Program-made: the position numbers and the translations under genes
In this document: positions 13,554 to 36,464 of the stretch, one piece after another
Layout of the letters: each line of letters opens with the position of its first letter
Numbering within the stretch: the stretch's first letter is position 1
Assembly: GCA_020848615.1 (NCBI GenBank)
Contig: JADLHW010000132.1
Location: 1 to 44,359 of the forward strand
DNA: 44,359 nt
Reading direction: 5' to 3'
DNA from: Thermoleophilia bacterium
Lineage (GTDB): Bacteria > Actinomycetota > Thermoleophilia > Miltoncostaeales > Miltoncostaeaceae
The notes under the pieces: generated by a model
Database searches by the model: none
Told to the model about the DNA's origin: nothing
Seen by the model: the letters and a program-made list of their open reading frames with translations, nothing else

Positions 13554-15521
13554 GTGACCAGCAGCACTCGACACGACGGGAACGACACGCGCGCCGAGCG
13601 CCTCGCCGAGGCGGTCCAGGTGCTCGCGGGCGAGCGCGACATCGACCGGATGTGCGGCCTCGCCCTGGACGCCGCCATGGACCTGGCGGGCGCCGCGGCG
13701 GGACACGTCGCGACGGCCGACGGGACCGGGGGTCTCGAGACCCGCGTGGCCAAGGGCGAGCCTGGCGAGGGGCCCGGCGCCGAGGAGCCCGTCACCGTCG
13801 CCGGTGAGCGGGTGGGGGTGATCGTGCTGTGGGGGGCGGACGACGCGGCCCGGCCCGCCGTGCGGGTGCTGGCGACCCAGCTGTCCCAGGGGTTCGCGAA
13901 CGTCGAGATGGAGCGCCGCGCGGCGCAGCAGCGCGGCCGGGCCCGGCGGTTCGCCGAGGCGGTCCGCGCGCTGCGCGGCGTGCAGCCCACCGAGCAGGCC
14001 GTGCTGTGCCTGGTCGACGAGGCCCGCAAGCTCGTCGCGGGCGCCGCGTCCGCGCTGGTCACCGGCCTGCCCGGCGACCCGGGACCCGCGGTGAGCCTGG
14101 GCCTGGACCCGGACTCCGAGCGCCTCCTGGCGGGCATCGTCGCAGGGGAGCTCAGCTCCCTGGTGGTGCACGGCAGGCCGTGGGCGGGCCCGGTGCCCAA
14201 CGACGTCCCGCTGCGCGAGCAGGGCCTGGTGGGCCTCGCCCTGGTCCCCGTGGGCGACGAGACCGACCGCATCGGGACGCTCGCGGTGCTCACCCGTGAC
14301 CCGGTCGGCGTGACCCTCGACGAGCTCGAGGCCCTGTGGAGCCTCGCGGACCACGCCACCGCCGCCCTCGGCGCCGCCGCCCTGCGGGAGCGCCTGGACG
14401 AGCTCGGGACCGTGGACCCCGCGACCCGGTTCTTCAACGCCCGGTACTTCACGACGCGCCTGGAGCAGGAGACCCACCGGGCCCTGCGGTCGCGGGAGGG
14501 CCTGTCCCTGGCGGTCTTCGGCATCGACGGGCTCACCCAGCTGCGGGCGACCGCGGGGGACCGCGCCGCCGAGGACGCGGTGTCGGCCCTGGCGGAGCAC
14601 ATGGTGCCGCGGCTGCGGGCCACCGACGTGGGATGCCGCACCGCCGTCGACGAGCTGGCGGTGATCCTGCCGGGCTCCGACGGCCTCGACGCGTACCGCA
14701 TCTCGGAGCGCATCCGCGCGGGGTTCGCCGCGGAGGCGGCCCTGACCCACGGCGTGTCGCTGTCGGTCGGTGTCGCGAACTTCCCCTCGCAGGCCGGCAC
14801 CGCCGACCAGCTGGCGGGGTTCGCCCGCACGGCCCTCACGCTCGCCCGCCGTCACGGCGGGGAGCGCACGTTCCTGTACGACCGCGAGGTCGCGGCGATG
14901 CTGGACGAGGAGGACCGCCGCGGCCGGGTGGTGGAGGAGTCGCTGGTCACCACGATCTCCACGCTGGCGGTGGCCGTCGACGAGCGGCACCACACGACCC
15001 GTGACCATTCCCAGAATGTCGCCCGTGTGGCGGCCATGCTGGCGTCCGAGCTCGGGATGGACCCCGAGCGCGTCGAGGAGGTCCGCCTGGCGGGCCTGCT
15101 CCACGACGTCGGCAAGATCGGCGTGAGCGAGGAGCTGCTCACCCGAGGCGGACCCCTCGAGCCCCATGAGTGGGACGAGATCCGCCAGCACCCGGAGATC
15201 GGGTACCGGATGCTGTCCGGCACCCGTCTCCGCAACGTCCGCGAGTTCGTCCGCCACCATCACGAGCGGTGGGACGGCGGCGGCTACCCGACGGGTCTCT
15301 CGGGGGAGGAGATCCCGCTGGAGAGCCGCGTCATCGCCGTGGCGAACGCGCTGGACAGCATGGTCAACGACCGCCCGTACCGGATGGCCCTGCCGTTCGA
15401 GGACGCGCTGGAGCTGATCGTGCAGAAGGCCGGGGGGCAGTTCTGCCCGGTCGCCGTCGAGGCATTGCAGCGGCTGGCCGAGCGTGACCCGGCATGGCTG
15501 CGTCCCGAGCCGAACGCGTAG
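13554..15521 (+). CDS. GAF-like / degenerate GGDEF / HD-GYP signalling protein
   Basis: This 655-residue soluble protein has two GAF-like sensor segments (about 15-120 and 135-275), a GGDEF-fold domain (about 280-440) and a C-terminal HD-GYP domain (about 455-640). The GGDEF signature is replaced by AVDEL (364-368), so cyclase activity is unlikely; it may bind a nucleotide instead. The HD-GYP domain keeps H517-D518, the H568-H570 cluster and GGYP up to P579, typical of c-di-GMP phosphodiesterases. The last metal-ligand Asp (usually AVAD) is Asn598, so activity is uncertain. The GTG at 13554 follows a strong AGGGAGG site. The next gene, 17 bases on, encodes an HDOD-LuxR protein. Confidence 0.9.
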   Translation: MTSSTRHDGNDTRAERLAEAVQVLAGERDIDRMCGLALDAAMDLAGAAAGHVATADGTGGLETRVAKGEPGEGPGAEEPVTVAGERVGVIVLWGADDAARPAVRVLATQLSQGFANVEMERRAAQQRGRARRFAEAVRALRGVQPTEQAVLCLVDEARKLVAGAASALVTGLPGDPGPAVSLGLDPDSERLLAGIVAGELSSLVVHGRPWAGPVPNDVPLREQGLVGLALVPVGDETDRIGTLAVLTRDPVGVTLDELEALWSLADHATAALGAAALRERLDELGTVDPATRFFNARYFTTRLEQETHRALRSREGLSLAVFGIDGLTQLRATAGDRAAEDAVSALAEHMVPRLRATDVGCRTAVDELAVILPGSDGLDAYRISERIRAGFAAEAALTHGVSLSVGVANFPSQAGTADQLAGFARTALTLARRHGGERTFLYDREVAAMLDEEDRRGRVVEESLVTTISTLAVAVDERHHTTRDHSQNVARVAAMLASELGMDPERVEEVRLAGLLHDVGKIGVSEELLTRGGPLEPHEWDEIRQHPEIGYRMLSGTRLRNVREFVRHHHERWDGGGYPTGLSGEEIPLESRVIAVANALDSMVNDRPYRMALPFEDALELIVQKAGGQFCPVAVEALQRLAERDPAWLRPEPNA

Positions 15522-15538
15522 GAAAGGAATCCACGCCG

Positions 15539-16603
15539 ATGGGCACCAACACCGCGGCGGCGCACCTGCGCGTCGTCGAATCCCCACCGCAGAAGGCGCC
15601 CCAGGACCGTCCTGGCCGTGACCTCCTCACCCAGAAGGCCGTCGCCGAGGCGGCGGAGAAGCTGGCCGCGCCGTCGGCCGTCGTGAGCAGCGTGCTGGAG
15701 CTCATCGACGGTGGCTCGGCACCGGTCCGCGCGATCGCGCAGCGTGTGGCGCAGAGCCCGGAGATCGCGGCGCAGCTGCTGCGTCTCGCGAACTCCGCCC
15801 TGTTCGGTGAGCCCGTCGACTCCCTCGACCGCGCCATCGTGCGCATCGGCGAGCGGAGCCTGCGGGGCCTGCTGCTCGCCGCGTCGACGTACCGGCTGCT
15901 GGAGGGCGAGCTGCGCATCTACGGCGTGCCGCGCCTGGCGCTGTTCACCCACTCCAACGAGGTCGCGACGATGGCGCAGGCCATCGCCACGCGCATCGCC
16001 GCGCCGGTCGCGCCGCAGGCGTTCCTGGCGGGCCTGGTGCACGACCTCGGCAAGCCGATCCTGGCGGAGGTCGCCCGCACCCGGGTGGAGCTGCCGGTGG
16101 TGCGCAACGTCAGCGAGGAGCGTGCGGTGTTCGGGACGGACCACGCCCGCGTCGGCACGTGGATCGCGAAGCGCTGGTCGCTGCCGCAGGACCTGTGCGA
16201 GGCGATGGAGCACCATCACGCCGCCACGCCGCCGGATGCGCCGGTCGGGCGGGCCGTGTGGCTCGCGGATCTGGTGGTGCGCGCCCAGCAGGGCGAGGCG
16301 GACGCCATCTCCCGGCTGCCCGCCGGCGCGGAGGCCTGCGGCATGCCGTCGGAGGTCCTGGAGTCGCTCCTCACCGCGACCTCCGTGGAGTCCGAGGAGC
16401 CGCAGCGGCCCTCCGGCCTCACGGACCGTGAGCTGCAGGTGCTGCGGATGCTCGCCACGGGTGCCGCCGCCAAGCAGGTCGCCCACCAGCTGGGCTGCTC
16501 GGTGTCGACGGTGCACAACCACCTGCACCACGTGTACCGCAAGCTGAACGTGACGGGCCAGGCGCAGGCGCTGCTGCTGGCCCGTGAGATGGGCTGGGTC
16601 TAG
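15539..16603 (+). CDS. HDOD domain protein with C-terminal LuxR-type HTH
   Basis: This 354-residue protein joins an HDOD signalling domain (about 35-235, with LRLANSALFGEPVDSLDRAI and HDLGKPIL) to a LuxR/FixJ-type helix-turn-helix at the C-terminus (LTDRELQVLRMLATG...VSTVHNHLHHVYRKLNV). HDOD domains resemble HD domains but usually lack full catalytic sets and act in signal transduction. The DNA-binding tail suggests that the HD-GYP/HDOD pair ends in a transcriptional output. The ATG at 15539 is chosen because AGGAAAGGA lies just upstream; an earlier start would overlap the HD-GYP gene. The two genes are almost certainly co-transcribed. Confidence 0.9.
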   Translation: MGTNTAAAHLRVVESPPQKAPQDRPGRDLLTQKAVAEAAEKLAAPSAVVSSVLELIDGGSAPVRAIAQRVAQSPEIAAQLLRLANSALFGEPVDSLDRAIVRIGERSLRGLLLAASTYRLLEGELRIYGVPRLALFTHSNEVATMAQAIATRIAAPVAPQAFLAGLVHDLGKPILAEVARTRVELPVVRNVSEERAVFGTDHARVGTWIAKRWSLPQDLCEAMEHHHAATPPDAPVGRAVWLADLVVRAQQGEADAISRLPAGAEACGMPSEVLESLLTATSVESEEPQRPSGLTDRELQVLRMLATGAAAKQVAHQLGCSVSTVHNHLHHVYRKLNVTGQAQALLLAREMGWV

Positions 16604-16606
16604 GCC

Positions 16607-16870
16607 TCAGCCATCGGACTCGCGGCCGGGCGTCCCGCCCGGTCGCCGCCCGGACGGGCGCGCGGGTCGCGTCCGTCGCCAAATGGCGCTCACCTGGGTC
16701 GCCGTCAGGCCCAGGTGCGCGCCCAGGCGCCGCGTCGACATCCCCTGCTCGATGAGCCGGATGACCGCGCGGTCGCGGAGTCGCCGCAGCGCGACCACCT
16801 TCTCCTCCGCCTCACGGACGGCGGCCGCGAGCTCCACGGCCTGCCTGAGGGTGTCGGGCTGCTCCGCCAT
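16607..16870 (-). CDS. Small helix-turn-helix protein
   Basis: This 87-residue protein has a long charged helix (TLRQAVELAAAVREAEEKVV) followed by a putative HTH (IEQGMSTRRLGAHLGLTATQ) and a basic, low-complexity tail. It looks like a small DNA-binding regulator. It faces away from the ATPase gene, with the 22-bp-spaced repeats between them, so autoregulation or control of the ATPase is plausible. The ATG at 16870 begins just before the helix; a start at 16930 (MAKGQPGVGG) is possible, and one at 16960 would be encoded by the repeats themselves and is unlikely. It is convergent with the HDOD-LuxR gene, only three bases apart. Confidence 0.6.
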   Translation of the reverse strand: MAEQPDTLRQAVELAAAVREAEEKVVALRRLRDRAVIRLIEQGMSTRRLGAHLGLTATQVSAIWRRTRPARPSGRRPGGTPGRESDG

Positions 16871-16922
16871 CGGCCCGGAAGGCTCGCAGACGGGGAGGGC
16901 ACCGCCAACACCGGGTTGACCC

Positions 16923-16981
16923 TTAGCCATCTGCGCAGCCAAGATTAGCCATATGCACACGCCGGATCAGCCAAATGCACA
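16923..16981. repeat. Three direct repeats at exact 22-bp spacing
   Basis: TTAGCCATCTGCGCA (16923), TTAGCCATATGCACA (16945) and TCAGCCAAATGCACA (16967) are 15-base repeats whose starts are exactly 22 bases apart, about two helical turns. Neighbouring copies differ at two positions. They occupy the divergent promoter region of the HTH and ATPase genes; the second copy contains the proposed ATPase start codon. This arrangement suggests a regulator binding three sites on one face of the DNA. Confidence 0.7.
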
Positions 16982-18236
16982 GGGTCCCCGCGGGCCGATC
17001 TACGAGCGCGCCGCGACCCGGCTGGTGGAGGAGGCGCTCGAGGACACCCGTGTCGTCTTCGTGAGCGGTGCGCGGCAGGTCGGCAAGAGCACCCTGGCAC
17101 GGGCGATCGCGTCGCGACGGGGCATGCCCTACGTCACGCTTGACGATGACACGGTGGCCGACGCCGCTCGGACGGACGCTCGAGGATTCCTCGCGGGTTT
17201 CGGTGAACCTCTGGTCATCGACGAGATCCAGCGAGCGCCTCAACTGGTCACCGCCATCAAGCGTCGCGTCGATATCGACGACCGACCCGGTCGCTTCCTG
17301 CTCACCGGATCCGCCAACGTGTTCGCGTCGCGCCTGGCACCGGAGGCGCTGACCGGTCGTCTGGAGACGGTCAGGCTCTGGCCCCTGAGCCAGTCGGAGA
17401 TCCGCGGGACACGCGCGAACGCGGTCGACATGCTGTTCGCCGGCCGCCCTCCTGATGTGGTTGGTGCGCCGGTCGGCCGGGCGGCGTTCGCCGACGTCAC
17501 CCTCGCCGGTGGATACCCCGAGGCACTCCGCAGGAATCCCGGCGGCCGGCGGGACCGGTGGTTCGCGGCGTATCTGGACGCCTCGCTCACGCGTGACCTC
17601 CGTGATGTCTCGGATGCCCTCAAACTCGCCGAGATGCCGAGACTGATGCGGTTGCTCGCGGCTCAGGCGGCGGGCGAGCTGTCATACCGCAACCTCGCCT
17701 CACGCCTGGAGATCACCCGAGACACGGTGCAGAGCTACATCCGCCTCCTCGAACTTGTATTCCTCACCGTCACGCTGCCGGGATGGCGGCCCGGGATCGG
17801 CGCACGCGAAACCCAGCGGCCGAAGGGCTATGTCGCCGACTCCGGTCTGCTTGCACACCTGCTCAATGCGGACGACGCTCGGATCCGCAATGACGACCAG
17901 GTCACGGGCCGTCTCCTGGAGAACTTCGTTGCGATGGAGCTCGTGCGCCTGGCGGACGGCTCGACGACACGTCCTTCCCTCTCCCACTACCGGCAGGGTC
18001 GCGAGGAGGTCGACGTAATCATGGAACGACGCTCGGGCGCGATCGTCGGAGTGGAGGTGAAGGCGGCGGCGACACTCCGACCGAGCGACTGGGCGGGCCT
18101 CGTGCGTCTCCGGGATGCCCGCGGCGACGCGTTCACCTGCGGCATCGTCCTCCACGCCGGCGATCGAACCGTCCCGCTGGCGGAACGCGTCTGGGCCGTG
18201 CCGATCAGCGGACTCTGGGCCGGCGCGTCCGGCTGA
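16953..18236 (+). CDS. AAA_14/DUF4143-type ATPase
   Basis: This 427-residue protein belongs to the common 'AAA ATPase plus DUF4143' family, whose cellular role is largely unknown. Visible are Walker A GARQVGKST at 39-47, Walker B LVIDEIQ, the sensor region FLLTGSANV, a central winged-helix-like region (LASRLEITRDTVQSYIRLLE) and a C-terminal part resembling a restriction-nuclease fold (EEVDVIME, VGVEVKAAATL). Such genes are scattered and often move between genomes; here it opens the accessory region. The ATG at 16953 lies inside the second 22-bp repeat with no ribosome site. A leaderless start is possible (weak TTGACC at 16916 and AAGATT at 16941). Confidence 0.88.
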   Translation: MHTPDQPNAQGPRGPIYERAATRLVEEALEDTRVVFVSGARQVGKSTLARAIASRRGMPYVTLDDDTVADAARTDARGFLAGFGEPLVIDEIQRAPQLVTAIKRRVDIDDRPGRFLLTGSANVFASRLAPEALTGRLETVRLWPLSQSEIRGTRANAVDMLFAGRPPDVVGAPVGRAAFADVTLAGGYPEALRRNPGGRRDRWFAAYLDASLTRDLRDVSDALKLAEMPRLMRLLAAQAAGELSYRNLASRLEITRDTVQSYIRLLELVFLTVTLPGWRPGIGARETQRPKGYVADSGLLAHLLNADDARIRNDDQVTGRLLENFVAMELVRLADGSTTRPSLSHYRQGREEVDVIMERRSGAIVGVEVKAAATLRPSDWAGLVRLRDARGDAFTCGIVLHAGDRTVPLAERVWAVPISGLWAGASG

Positions 18237-18237
18237 C

Positions 18238-18768
18238 ATGTCCACCACGTCGCCGTTCACCGCCATGCTCGCCGGGGGCGATCCCCGGTCGCTGGGGCGC
18301 ACCGCCGAGGTCGTGGACGTGGTGCTCGCCGACCCGGGTCGTCTGGGCGAGCTGTTCGCCTGCCTGGACAGCCCGGACCCGGTGGTGCGGATGCGCGCCG
18401 CCGACGGGCTCGAGAAGGCCTGCCGGGCGCGGCCGGAGCGGTTCACGCGGTTCGTGCCGCGCCTGCTGGGCGAGGTCGCGGCAATCGCGCAGCCGTCGGT
18501 GCGGTGGCATCTGGCGCAGATGCTTGGCGAGGTCGCGCTCCGGCCGTCGGAGGCGGAGGCCGCGCGGGGGGTCCTGCGGGACCAGCTCGCGGGCTCGTCG
18601 GATTGGATCGTCCTCACCTCGGCGATGTCGAGCCTCGCCGCGCTGGCGGGCGACGACCCCGCGCTCCGGGCCGACGCGGTGCGGTGGATCGGCCGGTTCG
18701 CCGACGATCCGCGTCCGGCGGTCGCCAAGCGGGCGGCCCGCGTGCTGACCGCCCTGGGGGCGTCGTGA
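18238..18768 (+). CDS. HEAT-repeat-like protein
   Basis: This 176-residue protein is almost wholly alpha-helical, with repeated helical hairpins such as LDSPDPVVRMRAADGLEKA, LGEVAAIAQPSVRWHLAQML and ADDPRPAVAKRAARVLTALG. The spacing of D-P-x-V-R-x-x-A is typical of HEAT-like repeats, which form protein-binding scaffolds. No catalytic residues are evident. The ATG lies one base after the ATPase stop and its own stop overlaps the next gene by GTGA, so the three genes form a compact unit. The partner protein is unknown. Confidence 0.8.
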   Translation: MSTTSPFTAMLAGGDPRSLGRTAEVVDVVLADPGRLGELFACLDSPDPVVRMRAADGLEKACRARPERFTRFVPRLLGEVAAIAQPSVRWHLAQMLGEVALRPSEAEAARGVLRDQLAGSSDWIVLTSAMSSLAALAGDDPALRADAVRWIGRFADDPRPAVAKRAARVLTALGAS

Positions 18769-19664
18769 GCATCCTGGTCGGCACCGCGTCCTGGACGGAC
18801 CCGGAGTTCATCAGGGCCGGTTGGTACCCGGACGAGGTGAAGAACGACGCGGAGGGGCGCCTGCGGTACTACGCGGACCGCTTCCCGATGGTGGAGGTGA
18901 ACGCCACCTTCTACGCGCTGCCCACGGTCGAGACCGTGGGGGCGTGGACGCGTCGCACGCCGGAGGGGTTCCGGTTCTTCGTGAAGGCCCATCAGGTGAT
19001 CTCCGGGCACCCGTCCGAACCCGGCCGCCTGCCGGCGGTGCTGCGGGAGCTGCCGTTCACCCCGGACAAGCGGGGGCGGATCCGGCGTCCGAGCCGGGAG
19101 ATGCGCGACGCGGTCATCGACGGCCTGCTGGAGGCCCTCGGCCCGATGGGGACCAAGCTCGGGGGGATCCTGCTGCAGCTCCCGCCGTACGTCGTCGCCG
19201 GCGACGCCCAGAGGGCGGAGGTGGAGCGCATCATCGCCCGGTGCGCCCCGGTGCGCGTGGCGGTGGAGTTCCGGCACCGGTCGTGGGTGGCGGAGGGGGA
19301 GCGGGAACGCACGATGGACATGCTCGGCGCCCGCGACGCCGCGTACGTGTGCGTCGACGCGCCGCGAATCGACACCGCCTCGGCGATGCCGCCGATCGCG
19401 GAGGTCACCTGCCCGGAGCTCGCGTACCTGCGCCTGCACGGCCGGAACGCCGCGACCTGGCACACCGGCACGACCGTCGCCGAACGCTACGACCACGTCT
19501 ACACGCGCGACGAGATGACCGAGTGGCTCGACCCGGTCCTGGAGATGGCCGAGCGCGCCCAGGAGGTCGCGGTGGTGTTCAACAACAACGCCAGGGACCA
19601 CGCCCTCAGGAACGCCGCCGACTTCAGGAATCTCCTGCAAGAGCGGGCATCCGAGGGCGGATGA
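18765..19664 (+). CDS. DUF72 family protein
   Basis: This 299-residue protein has the DUF72 (YecE-like) signature, a TIM-barrel fold whose biochemical role remains unknown. Characteristic segments are ILVGTASWTDPEFI at the N-terminus, MVEVNATFYALP, FRFFVKAHQVIS, VAVEFRHRSWV, LAYLRLHGRN and VVFNNNARDHALRNA near the end. The GTG at 18765 overlaps the HEAT-like gene and begins at the conserved first strand; the longer open frame upstream runs inside that gene. It closes the run that begins with the ATPase. Confidence 0.92.
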   Translation: MSILVGTASWTDPEFIRAGWYPDEVKNDAEGRLRYYADRFPMVEVNATFYALPTVETVGAWTRRTPEGFRFFVKAHQVISGHPSEPGRLPAVLRELPFTPDKRGRIRRPSREMRDAVIDGLLEALGPMGTKLGGILLQLPPYVVAGDAQRAEVERIIARCAPVRVAVEFRHRSWVAEGERERTMDMLGARDAAYVCVDAPRIDTASAMPPIAEVTCPELAYLRLHGRNAATWHTGTTVAERYDHVYTRDEMTEWLDPVLEMAERAQEVAVVFNNNARDHALRNAADFRNLLQERASEGG

Positions 19665-20209
19665 GAGGGCGAAGACCTTCTCCCCGGGGCCGTGCTGAGT
19701 CGAGAGCGACTGCGCGGCGCTGCACGCCGCGGCCCGGGTGCCGCTCTACGCCCTGTTCGCGTACCTGGGTGACCGACCACGAGGCGCGGGAGCGCGAGCA
19801 GTGGTGCGGCGTGCAGCGCGCAGCCAGGGACGCCAAAGCGAACGGTCCTCGGACCCGTCGCGTGGGCCGCCGGATCTGGAGGCCTTGGAGCGCGACGTGA
19901 CCAGGCGCCTGCCAGGGCGCCGCCGAGCTGCAGCACATCGCCGGGGCCCATGCCATCCGCGACTGGCTCACCGGCCGCTGAAGAGAACCCATCTGGCTGG
20001 TCGTCCTCCCCGGAATCCGCCCTCGGGTCGACCGACGACGCCCTGGTGACGGCCCTCCATGCCCAGAACGGGACGGATTCGGTGTCGTGCGTCCCGCCGA
20101 GGTGCCGCTCCTGGGCCGGTACCCGCCCGCACGTGGCCAGGCACAGCGGCGGGCTGAACGTCTGGACCGGGCTGTAGAACAAGCCGATGCTCGCGGAGGC
20201 GTCTCCAAG
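19665..20209 (+). other. 545-base stretch without an intact gene; decayed coding remnant
   Basis: No frame here gives a convincing protein. Three short plus-strand pieces in different frames look like parts of one decayed gene: QRAARDAKANG near 19810-19850, PPDLEALERDVTRRL near 19870-19910, and AAELQHIAGAHAIRDWLTG ending at the stop 19979-19981. The first two recall the linker and C-terminal part of serine recombinases, but the match is from memory and weak. From 19982 to 20209 I see nothing identifiable. The decay fits the mobile character of the neighbourhood. Confidence 0.3.
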
Positions 20210-20569
20210 GTGAGCGGCGGGGCGGAGAGCTTCGTCGTGGTCTACGACCACGACGCGGCGCGGGAGCTCCAGGACATCCGCGACAAGCGCCTGCGCGCGG
20301 CGATCTTCACCGCGGTGGAGAAGCTGCGGGTCCTCGGTCCCAAGACGATCGAGCCGCATGGCAGGAAGGTCCAGGGCGCCACCAAGCTTCGAGAGCTGCG
20401 GCCCCGTGGTGGGCAGTGCACGGTGCGACCCCTCTACGTCCAGCGCGACGAGCGCGAGTACGTGGTCCTGGCGATCGCCCCGGAGGCCATGGAGAACCCC
20501 TCGGGGTTCAACACCTCGGTCGAACGGGCAAGGGCTCGGGCTCGGAACCGCTACGGGATCGATGCCTGA
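20210..20569 (+). CDS. RelE/HigB-type toxin
   Basis: This 119-residue protein resembles the HigB/phage Gp49-like branch of RelE-fold mRNA interferases. It has VVYDHDAARELQDI, TKLRELRPRG, the basic RPLYVQRDEREYVVL strand pair and a C-terminal helix ending ARARARNRYG. These toxins cleave mRNA on the ribosome when free of antitoxin. The GTG at 20210 starts directly before the first strand; the upstream frame to 20050 has no protein-like character. The antitoxin gene follows 101 bases later, the toxin-first order typical of higBA. Confidence 0.82.
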   Translation: MSGGAESFVVVYDHDAARELQDIRDKRLRAAIFTAVEKLRVLGPKTIEPHGRKVQGATKLRELRPRGGQCTVRPLYVQRDEREYVVLAIAPEAMENPSGFNTSVERARARARNRYGIDA

Positions 20570-20600
20570 GGCGACGCTCAAGGTCTCTCCATGGTCGGGC

Positions 20601-20643
20601 GATAACACGCGTGGTATCGTCACTCACGGATCGCCGTCCGTGA
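20601..20643. promoter_or_regulatory. Two adjacent palindromes between toxin and antitoxin genes
   Basis: GATAACACGCGTGGTATC at 20601-20618 is an 18-base palindrome matching its own complement at 16 of 18 positions. It is followed by TCACGGA (20624-20630) and TCCGTGA (20637-20643), a perfect 7-bp inverted repeat with a six-base spacer. Both precede the antitoxin start at 20671. They are candidate binding sites for the HTH antitoxin and could serve an internal promoter; TATCGT at 20615-20620 is a weak -10 candidate. Confidence 0.55.
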
Positions 20644-20670
20644 CAGAGGGCGGGAGATGAGGGGGCACCG

Positions 20671-21069
20671 ATGACTCGCATCAATGCGGGCGACCTCACG
20701 ACCCATGGTCAGCTGGTCGCCGAGGAGATCAACACCGACGCCGAGTTCCGTCAGGAGTGGGAGCGGCTCGCCCTCGCGCGCGCGGTCGCCGCCGAGGTCG
20801 TCCGGTACCGCGCCGACCACGACCTGTCCCAGCGGGACCTGGCGCGCACCCTTGGCATCCGTCAGCCGCAGGTCGCACGCTTGGAGAACGCCGAGCACAA
20901 CCCGTCGCACGAGACGCTGGTGATGCTCGCAAGCCGGCTGGGCATCGAGTTCAACATCAGCATCGTGCCGGCGGACAAGACCCCCGCCTTGCTCACCAAG
21001 AAGGGGCGTGAGGACGCCACCGCGTGCATCCGGGCAGACGACGCGGTGGTCCGGTTCAACGCGCGTTGA
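20671..21069 (+). CDS. XRE-family antitoxin (HigA-like)
   Basis: This 132-residue protein has a central Cro/C1-type helix-turn-helix (HDLSQRDLARTLGIRQPQVA, then RLENAEHNPSHETL), preceded by a helix that may contact the toxin. HigA antitoxins neutralise HigB and repress their own operon through the HTH. The ATG follows GAGGGGGCACC. The palindromes just upstream are suited to its dimer. The C-terminal ~40 residues are less conserved and may be a flexible tail. Confidence 0.86.
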   Translation: MTRINAGDLTTHGQLVAEEINTDAEFRQEWERLALARAVAAEVVRYRADHDLSQRDLARTLGIRQPQVARLENAEHNPSHETLVMLASRLGIEFNISIVPADKTPALLTKKGREDATACIRADDAVVRFNAR

Positions 21070-34448: not shown

Positions 34449-36464
34449 ATGACCACGCGTTCGCTTCCCTACATCGCCGGCCCCGGGAGACCGGGGACCG
34501 GTGACGCAACGGCCCCGGCCGCCGCGACCGCGGCGGCCGCAGGGCCCCGCTGGGTCCGTCCCGCACTCGCCGTGCTGCTGGCCGCCACCGCGGCCCTGTA
34601 CCTGTGGGCGCTGGGGGACTCCGGCTGGGCCAACGACTTCTACGCCGCCGCCGTCCAGTCGGGCACGGAGTCGTGGAAGTCGTTCCTGTTCGGCTCCCTG
34701 GACTGGGGCAACGCGATCACGGTGGACAAGCCGCCGGCGTCCCTCTGGGTGATGGAGCTCTCGGGGCGGGTGTTCGGCTTCTCCAGCTGGAGCATGCTGG
34801 CCCCGCAGGCCCTGGAGGGCGTCGCCGCGGTGTGGCTGCTGTTCGCCGCGGTGCGGCGGGTCGCCGGACCCGTCGCCGGGCTGGTGTCCGGCGCGGCGCT
34901 CGCCGTGACGCCCGTCGCGGCCCTGATGTTCCGGTTCAACAACCCGGACGCCCTGCTGACGCTCCTGCTGGTGGCCGGCGGCTACTGCATGGTGCGGGCG
35001 GTCGAGCGCGGCGCGATCCGCTGGATCGCCCTCGCCGGCGCCGCCGTGGGCTTCGCGTTCCTCACCAAGATGCTGCAGGCGTTCCTGGTGGTCCCGGCGT
35101 TCGCCGCCATGTGGATGGTGGCGGCCCCCGTCGACCTCAGGCGCAGGTTCATGGGGCTGGCCGCCGGCCTGGGCGCGCTGGTCGCGTCGGCCGGCTGGTT
35201 CATCGCCCTGGTGGAGCTGTGGCCCTCGGGCAGCCGGCCGTACATCGGCGGCTCCACCGGCAACTCGATCCTCGAGCTCACCCTGGGCTACAACGGCCTG
35301 GACCGGCTGTCCGGGGGCTCCGGCCCCGGTGGCGGCGGTGGCGGCGGCGGCGGGACGGGCTTCGGGGGCACCGCGGGCCTGGGCCGCATGTTCAACGACG
35401 CGTTCGGCACGCAGGTGTCGTGGCTCATCCCGGCCGCGGCGATCCTCCTGGGCGCCGGCATCTGGTTCACGCTCCGCACGAAGCGCACCGACGCGACCCG
35501 GGCGTCGCTCATCCTGTGGGGCGGCTGGGCGCTGGTGACCGCCGGGGTGTTCTCGAAGATGAGCGGCATCGTGCACCCGTACTACGCGGTGGCCCTGGCC
35601 CCCGCGATCGCCGCCCTGTTGGGCATCGGCGGATGGGAGCTGTGGCGGCACCGCGATCGCCTGGAGGCCCGCGCGCTGGGCGCCGCGACCGTGGTGGTGT
35701 CGGGGTGGTGGGCGTCGCGCCTGCTGGACCGCACCCCGGACTGGCACCCGTGGCTGCGCGGCACCGTCCTCGCCGCGGGCCTGCTTGGCGCCGCCCTCAT
35801 CCTGCTCCCGGCGGGCATGCGCACACGCTGGCACGGCGCCGCGGTGGGGACCGTGTGCGCGGTGGCGATGTTCGCCGCCCCCACGGCGTTCGCCCTGCAG
35901 ACCGCCTCGACCCCGCACACCGGGTCCGTTCCCACCGCCGGCCCCACGGCCCAGGGCGGTGGCGGCGGCTTCGGCGGCGGGCCGTCCGGCGGGAACCTCC
36001 AGCCCCCGTCGGGAGGCACCGGCGGGGCCACGCCGCCCACCGACGGCGGCACCGGCGGGTTCACGCCGCCCGCGAACGGCACCGGCGGGTTCACGCCGCC
36101 GTCGGGTCGCGGGATGGACGGCGGCATGGGCACCGCCAGCAGCGAGCTCGTGACGCTCCTGAGGTCGGAGACCGGGCGCTGGGCCGCCGCGACCGTCGGC
36201 TCCCAGAGCCAGGCGGGGCTGCAGCTGGCGTCCGGGAAGGCCGTGATGGCCATCGGGGGCTTCAACGGCGGCGACGACGCCCCCACCCTGGAGCAGTTCC
36301 GGCAATGGGTGGCCGACGGGGAGATCGGGTACTTCATCTCCGGCGGGGGGATGGGCGGAGGTCGCGATGGTGGCGGCTCCGGCCAGCAGATCGCCCAGTG
36401 GGTGGCGGACAACTACACCGCCACCACCGTGGGCGGGCAGACCGTCTACGACCTCACCCCGTAG
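34449..36464 (+). CDS. GT39/ArnT-type polytopic glycosyltransferase
   Basis: This ~671-residue membrane protein resembles the PMT/ArnT group that transfers sugars from polyprenyl-phosphate donors. The first extracytoplasmic loop has WANDFYAAAVQSG and VDKPPASLWV, and MFRFNNPDALLTLLLV is the family's second marker. About ten or more hydrophobic helices follow, with a Gly-rich loop near 295-310. The C-terminal ~190 residues form an external region with Gly/Pro-rich repeats and a final domain (LRSETGRWAAATVGSQSQAG, YFISGGGMGGG). The upstream GT2-GtrA gene probably makes the donor. The ATG at 34449 has GTGAGGA upstream; GTG 34437 would add four residues. Confidence 0.9.
   Translation: MTTRSLPYIAGPGRPGTGDATAPAAATAAAAGPRWVRPALAVLLAATAALYLWALGDSGWANDFYAAAVQSGTESWKSFLFGSLDWGNAITVDKPPASLWVMELSGRVFGFSSWSMLAPQALEGVAAVWLLFAAVRRVAGPVAGLVSGAALAVTPVAALMFRFNNPDALLTLLLVAGGYCMVRAVERGAIRWIALAGAAVGFAFLTKMLQAFLVVPAFAAMWMVAAPVDLRRRFMGLAAGLGALVASAGWFIALVELWPSGSRPYIGGSTGNSILELTLGYNGLDRLSGGSGPGGGGGGGGGTGFGGTAGLGRMFNDAFGTQVSWLIPAAAILLGAGIWFTLRTKRTDATRASLILWGGWALVTAGVFSKMSGIVHPYYAVALAPAIAALLGIGGWELWRHRDRLEARALGAATVVVSGWWASRLLDRTPDWHPWLRGTVLAAGLLGAALILLPAGMRTRWHGAAVGTVCAVAMFAAPTAFALQTASTPHTGSVPTAGPTAQGGGGGFGGGPSGGNLQPPSGGTGGATPPTDGGTGGFTPPANGTGGFTPPSGRGMDGGMGTASSELVTLLRSETGRWAAATVGSQSQAGLQLASGKAVMAIGGFNGGDDAPTLEQFRQWVADGEIGYFISGGGMGGGRDGGGSGQQIAQWVADNYTATTVGGQTVYDLTP
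36015..36100 (+). repeat. Gly/Pro coding repeats in the GT39 external linker
   Basis: Three copies of a GGCACCGGCGGG...ACGCCGCC unit start at 36015, 36048 and 36078 and encode TGGATPP, TGGFTPP and TGGFTPP. The last two copies are 30 bases apart and identical over 23 bases, so slippage or unequal exchange could change the linker length. Confidence 0.7.

Follow-up and report, generated by a model that had tools for sequence, protein, structure and literature searches.

Three 15-bp direct repeats at exact 22-bp spacing, located between a small divergent HTH gene and an ATPase gene of a Thermoleophilia bacterium, are probably an operator that belongs to the ATPase gene, and through which the ATPase, probably by its own winged helix, controls its own promoter. 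The ATPase is a full-length PDC-S01 protein (a PADLOC phage-defence candidate) with a predicted STAND-like ATPase core, winged helix and PD-(D/E)XK-like domain, and relatives of its gene usually carry their own, differently spelled version of the same site. The window referred to below is the entire stretch of DNA analysed, namely the 44,359 nucleotides of contig JADLHW010000132.1 (assembly GCA_020848615.1). The features of the locus are as follows.

16923..16937 (+): operator copy 1, TTAGCCATCTGCGCA
16945..16959 (+): operator copy 2, TTAGCCATATGCACA; holds the ATG of the longest ATPase ORF
16967..16981 (+): operator copy 3, TCAGCCAAATGCACA; ends about 14-17 bp before the position that matches the start codon of the closest relatives
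16916..16945 (+): tentative promoter, TTGACC at 16916-16921, 18-bp spacer, CAAGAT at 16940-16945
16953..18236 (+): ATPase (AAA_14 + DUF4143 by Pfam), full-length PDC-S01 family protein
17067..17093 (+): Walker A, residues 39-47 (GARQVGKST)
17220..17225 (+): Walker B residues D90 and E91
17625..17786 (+): predicted winged-helix domain, residues 225-278, the proposed reader of the repeats; predicted recognition helix 256-268 at 17718-17756
18006..18062 (+): PD-(D/E)XK-like motif, residues 352-370
16607..16870 (-): divergent HTH gene (87 aa), a neighbour and not a part of the system
16917..18773 (no strand): stretch that does not align with the sister genome G134, which has 279 other bp there; begins 6 bp before copy 1

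Three direct repeats at the ATPase gene

The repeats noted in the preliminary description were found to be real and to lie exactly where it had placed them. As judged by eye, neighbouring copies agree at 13 of 15 positions and the outer two at 11 of 15. A repeat search with a 9-base seed reported no direct family; the longest exact words shared by the copies are 7-8 bases. To address the possibility of chance, the region 16861-17010 was compared with itself over lags of 8-60; the best self-match is at lag 22 with a score of 21, which was reached by 0 of 5000 shuffles, and in the whole window only a lag of 30 at about 35951-36150, which is a multiple of 3, scored higher. The pattern TYAGCCAWATGCACA with up to 3 mismatches hits the window only at these three places (expected 0.50), and 3 or more hits were obtained in 2 of 100 shuffles. 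Copies scattered elsewhere in the genome without the HTH gene had been named in advance as an outcome that would speak against a dedicated HTH regulator; in the whole genome the looser pattern TNAGCCANNTGCNCA has 5 hits, three of them here and two at further single sites, which is at the level of a reversed control pattern (3 hits).

Three details of the preliminary description require correction. It placed the copies in phase on the helix, but 22 bp is about 2.1 helical turns, so that they are only roughly in phase, and relatives use 22 or 23 bp. It also placed the ATPase start codon in the middle copy, and this is uncertain: in the two closest relatives (loci L007 and L037, 64 and 63% identical) the copies lie, as read by eye, before a GGAGG and the start, the position matching their start is about 16995-16998, where the window has no ATG, GTG or TTG, and residues 1-12 of the structural model have pLDDT under 50. 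Finally, the HTH gene most likely starts at 16870 (MAEQPDTL...), judged from the region conserved in G134, and the repeats are thus not in its coding sequence.

The divergent HTH gene

The interpretation offered in the preliminary description, an operator bound by a dedicated HTH regulator, is supported only in part: comparison supports the operator, whereas the role of the HTH protein is not supported. The HTH gene is divergent and adjacent, with the repeats 53-111 bp before its start, and a search of its homologues for neighbouring ATPase genes and the same repeats had been proposed as a test. It is conserved in three related genomes, G134 (85% identical), G031 and G043, between the same HDOD-LuxR and DUF72 genes, with no ATPase hit in between. 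The DNA between the HTH and DUF72 genes in these genomes holds neither the motif (at least 5, 6 and 6 mismatches of 15) nor a 22/23-bp self-match (scores 8 or less); in G134 and G031 it was also read directly. The window aligns with G134 at 87% up to 16916, breaks 6 bp before copy 1 and resumes at 18774, so that ATPase and repeats lie in one stretch that the sister lacks. A search of 337 loci, nearly all of them ATPase loci, with the HTH protein returned a single hit, which is the window's own locus. About 120 of these loci are under 2 kb, with only about 500-600 bp before the gene and nothing after it; of the 300 loci of the main set described below, 235 have at least 500 bp and 171 at least 1 kb upstream. 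The HTH protein is therefore very unlikely to be the dedicated regulator that binds the repeats.

Other genes around the ATPase were noted in passing. A HEAT-repeat gene (18239-18768, searched with the longer ORF 18115-18768) lies between the ATPase and DUF72 genes, in the stretch that G134 lacks. The gene at 15494-16603 encodes an HDOD domain fused to a LuxR-type HTH and follows a GGDEF/HD gene (13554-15521); both have hits together in G134, G031 and G043. At 20087-21069, about 2 kb from the ATPase, a Gp49/HigB-like toxin gene (Pfam PF05973) is followed by an HTH_3/HTH_37 antitoxin-like gene, a HigBA-type pair which suggests a small defence or toxin-antitoxin island.

Repeats upstream of related ATPase genes

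The repeats instead accompany the ATPase gene across phyla. Upstream regions of homologues repeat themselves at 22 or 23 bp with sequences unlike those of the window: CTTTCGCCATATGCGCA in L007, forms of ATTCCGTAATTTACG in Betaproteobacteria, Chlorobi and Deltaproteobacteria (L093, L063, L084), and CTCCCAATCTGTCAC in L016. In 161 distinct loci (of 166, after 4 were dropped and 5 merged) the best lag between 8 and 60 is 22 in 69, 23 in 39 and 44 in 7; one other comparison used 102 distinct loci of 113. In an enlarged set, 319 loci were examined, 12 were dropped (no Walker A in frame, short protein or short upstream) and 7 with a repeated protein were merged, leaving 300 distinct ATPases. Here the best upstream lag is 22 in 96, 23 in 100 and 44-46 in 30, against 2, 2 and 8 in coding controls and 6, 4 and 9 in shuffled upstream DNA; in the remaining 74 loci it was none of these. 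A score of 12 or more was reached by 207 of the 300, of which 165 at 22/23, compared to 18 in coding sequence (0 at 22/23) and 5 in shuffled DNA (0 at 22/23).

Members under 38% identity to the window protein favour 23 bp (19 of 43 at lag 23, 2 of 43 at lag 22), and spacing is a clade trait: on the ATPase tree of 185 loci, 22 against 23 bp needs 19 changes, whereas 200 label shuffles gave a mean of 59 and a lowest value of 50. All 90 loci with a repeat score under 10 were searched for inverted repeats. A strong inverted repeat near the start was found in 37, against 2 in shuffled and 2 in coding controls, while in 90 loci drawn from the 185 with repeats the corresponding numbers were 8, 1 and 4; 53 of the 90 low scorers have no strong inverted repeat either. 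Members without direct repeats that have long palindromes at the start include L230 (for example TGTTCAATTCACGATAGAATCGTGAATTGAACA), L236, L267, L183 and L188. One clade seems, by eye, to have both, with palindromes repeated every 22 bp, as in L047, L055 and L067. Among plasmids of named isolates, Agrobacterium pAt1 has three copies at 22 bp and Sinorhizobium fredii NGR234 pNGR234b (L360) six copies at 23 bp, counted by eye; L093, at 22 bp, is from the isolate Azonexus hydrophilus. A common-register operator motif obtained by EM mis-registered several loci, including the window, and was used only as an illustration.

The gene is patchy, as 82 of 299 genomes of the class and 388 of 72,556 plasmid records have a match. 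About 1.3 kb upstream of the intact L093 gene, a fragment (199003-199107 of contig C2 of genome G299) is 88% identical to residues 255-287 of the L093 ATPase, around the end of the winged helix by our reckoning, and is perhaps a remnant of an earlier copy.

Position of the arrays relative to start and promoter

In 119 loci with a score of 18 or more, the array ends a median 21 bp before the nearest plausible start (IQR 11-33) and 103 nt before Walker A (IQR 91.5-112). In 25 loci of the TTCC..AT..ACG type (those fitting a set motif at lag 22 with a score of 10 or more), positions 2-7 after the matched copy read TANNAT (T 84%, A 80%, A 84%, T 84%); the array in this type usually abuts a -10 box, with the start 5-8 bp on. 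In 19 of the 25 the matched copy is the last, and ATG or GTG follows the hexamer after 5-7 bp, mostly 6. In the other 6 a further copy follows; four of these (L061, L076, L078 and L091) have a -10-like hexamer 6-8 bp before the start, and L063 and L071 do not (spacings counted by eye). In this type the promoter is thus nearly leaderless and lies against the array. In the window itself the promoter is only tentative: the TTGACC-18-CAAGAT pair around copy 1 was read by eye, matches 8 of 12 consensus bases and would start transcription at about 16953, but the promoter scan reported nothing at its cut-off of 9. The ORF start in copy 2 is therefore possible, yet the closest relatives start after the copies and only 7 of 119 arrays contain the start.

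These positions also bear on a function of the repeats in RNA, as a leader structure or a small-RNA target. Copies 2 and 3 of the window would be wholly or partly transcribed if the tentative promoter is right, but in the 25 loci above the arrays lie upstream of the -10 box and would not be transcribed, and we regard this reading as very unlikely.

To test for terminal repeats of a mobile element, the DNA after the gene was searched in 70 loci with a score of 18 or more: 0 of 70 reach 80% of the operator score downstream, and 1 of 70 exceeds its shuffles. An alternative in which the repeats are not mainly regulatory, but a docking, loading or cutting site of the ATPase-nuclease (a self-mark, mobility or maintenance site), could draw on the iteron-like array, the PD-(D/E)XK-like fold, the location of gene and repeats in a stretch absent from the sister genome, and the finding that 162 of the 388 plasmid records with a match are typed conjugative. 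The presence of copies only on the promoter side, their rather constant position relative to start and -10 box, and the palindromic version in other members speak against it, and it is considered unlikely.

The ATPase and its predicted structure

The protein matches the PADLOC profile PDLC04790 over its full length (E 2.7e-152, residues 16-423 on profile positions 11-419 of 422). Four further members checked, a paralogue in the same genome (L133), L186, and the Thermus and NGR234 plasmid proteins, match the same profile best. In 48 sequences R41, G44, K45 and T47 of Walker A and D90 of Walker B are invariant, and E91 is conserved in 90% or more. No sequence relative of known structure was found at E 0.01, and fold comparison was needed. 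In the AlphaFold2 model (pLDDT 90.9), residues 9-320 align with 2qen, 2fna, RPP1 and CED-4 at Z 13.0-15.3 (rmsd 3.6-4.8, 239-254 aligned), indicating, on fold alone, an NTPase core followed by a winged helix in NB-ARC-like order. Foldseek itself ranked RuvB, RPP1 and Apaf-1 highest, at TM-scores of only 0.20-0.36 to the query. The C-terminal part folded alone (pLDDT 87.3) matches PD-(D/E)XK nucleases, best Can2 (Z 9.5, rmsd 4.5, 132 aligned) and McrBC chain M, taken to be McrC (Z 9.0, rmsd 3.4, 123 aligned), which are modest values; no fold family was ruled out by absence from the VIA-align lists. Catalytic-type residues are conserved: in 43 sequences D354, E358 and K370 are invariant and E368 nearly so, while in the 48 sequences K370 is nearly invariant.

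Which protein reads the repeats

The genome of the window has three such genes, each with its own repeats (the window at 22 bp, L133 and L134 at 23 bp). Over 49 within-genome pairs, among 71 of 185 loci that were assigned to genomes by hand, operators are no more alike than between genomes (0.525 against 0.527, highest 0.71), while over the 185 loci operator similarity rises from 0.50 at 20-30% protein identity to 0.79 above 80%. A shared host factor would be expected to give the opposite pattern. No conserved partner gene was found in 104 loci of at least 3 kb: the commonest flanking family, by eye another ATPase of this kind, occurs in 7 of them. PIN-like (L059, L072, L099, L100), YefM-like (L024, L097, L235), nucleotidyltransferase-like (L065, L090, L210) and GNAT-like (L093, L095, L099) genes, judged by eye, recur in 3-4 loci per family. 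A separate, unlinked regulator, on the model of the repressor RptR (itself linked) that acts through three direct repeats on a defence-island promoter (PMC12255303), would have to exist for each gene, and is unlikely.

To examine whether the winged helix follows the operator, covariation was measured after removing overall identity, in loci with a repeat score of 12 or more at 22 or 23 bp. In 185 loci the winged helix holds 54 of 363 tested columns but 5 of the top 10, 5 of the top 20 and 10 of the top 30, among them T255 and D257 at the start of the predicted recognition helix. In 96 loci D257 and V269 ranked first and second of 340, with 3 of the top 10 and 6 of the top 30 in the winged helix. 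However, the domain-level test barely separates the winged helix (partial 0.136) from the ATPase core and nuclease-like domain (0.10 each) and is too weak to decide alone; in the larger set the top column is G349, in the nuclease-like domain, and the operator-protein correlation is 0.27 against about 0.41 in the smaller set. In addition, in the nearest folds (plant NLRs, CED-4) the winged helix is part of the nucleotide switch and not DNA-binding. We take self-binding as likely, although nothing here shows binding.

Discussion

Taken together, most family members examined carry either an array of direct repeats at 22 or 23 bp, or a palindrome, just before or over their start. The comparisons demonstrate that the element goes with the ATPase gene and not the HTH gene, that it sits a short, rather constant distance before the ATPase start, that in one type it abuts a -10 box, that its sequence differs between paralogues of one genome and drifts with the ATPase, and that spacing is a clade trait. 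The reader of the site, in contrast, is inferred: ATPase protomers would bind successive copies with their winged helices, one per copy and stepwise, each step turned about 34 degrees (22 bp) or 69 degrees (23 bp) at 10.5 bp per turn, giving a short helical assembly that covers the promoter and keeps the gene low. That ATP hydrolysis, or a trigger such as phage or foreign DNA, would change this assembly, release the promoter and free the ATPase-nuclease to act is speculation. In PMC4406477 a Thermus gene with AAA 14/DUF4143 rises 6.6-fold when plasmid and Argonaute are both present, which fits an inducible gene but proves nothing here; a relative on a plasmid of another Thermus strain has a palindrome at its start, and this is a lead only.

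A more far-reaching scenario, which we consider unlikely although it is not excluded, is that the operator is the 'antitoxin' of a one-gene system. The ATPase-nuclease would be held inactive as a short nucleoprotein filament on its own 22-23 bp repeats, and let loose when foreign DNA, a phage factor or loss of the gene strips or dilutes that site. Private repeat sequences would then keep paralogues from silencing one another, as immunity groups do in phage repressors.

An operator found across the family gives it a defined DNA target, which can be footprinted, used as an induction reporter, and used to ask what wakes the protein. The private repeat sequences suggest many orthogonal repressor-operator pairs, and operator architecture (22, 23, palindrome) could help sort the family. 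We found no report of this operator in literature searches, which covered no preprints and few subscription papers, on PDC-S01, DUF4143, COG1373, PF13635/PF13173, Rv2008c, STAND and winged-helix proteins and guilt-by-embedding, including PMC4406477, PMC3087520, PMC12988326, PMC13356809 and PMC12255303; a search on AAA_14 returned mostly unrelated text, and one for operators of AAA ATPases found nothing.

PDC-S01 is described in PMC12988326 as an ATPase fused to a PD-(D/E)XK member, a single-gene candidate found by genomic association and the fourth most common defence across all prokaryotes, with experimental validation pending for most such candidates; anti-phage activity was not measured here. 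The main text of that paper has no occurrence of 'promoter', 'operator' or 'direct repeat', and the operator is added by the present analysis. The nearest folds by VIA-align are the archaeal AAA+ ATPases PABY2304 (2qen; Z 15.3, rmsd 4.5, 254 aligned) and SSO1545 (2fna; Z 14.3, rmsd 3.6, 247 aligned), followed by the NLR/CED-4 STAND proteins. Identity to the archaeal proteins is 18-19% over model residues 11-305, and most of the C-terminal nuclease-like domain lies outside that range.

Plasmid iterons bound by Rep winged-helix initiators are likewise short direct repeats about two turns apart next to a gene for a winged-helix protein, and the present array is evenly spaced beside such a gene. 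No conserved neighbour, and so no replication gene set, was found here, and the array abuts the promoter; origin function was not examined and no origin has been shown. The nearest documented parallel is the RptR operator of type I restriction islands (PMC12255303), where three direct repeats over a defence promoter overlap promoter boxes and mediate autorepression. Direct repeats over the promoter are seen in the present family as well, although in the window the promoter is tentative. RptR is a separate small dimer and its 9-bp repeats share a conserved TAGCTA core, whereas here the units are 22-23 bp and private to each gene, and no small regulator is linked.
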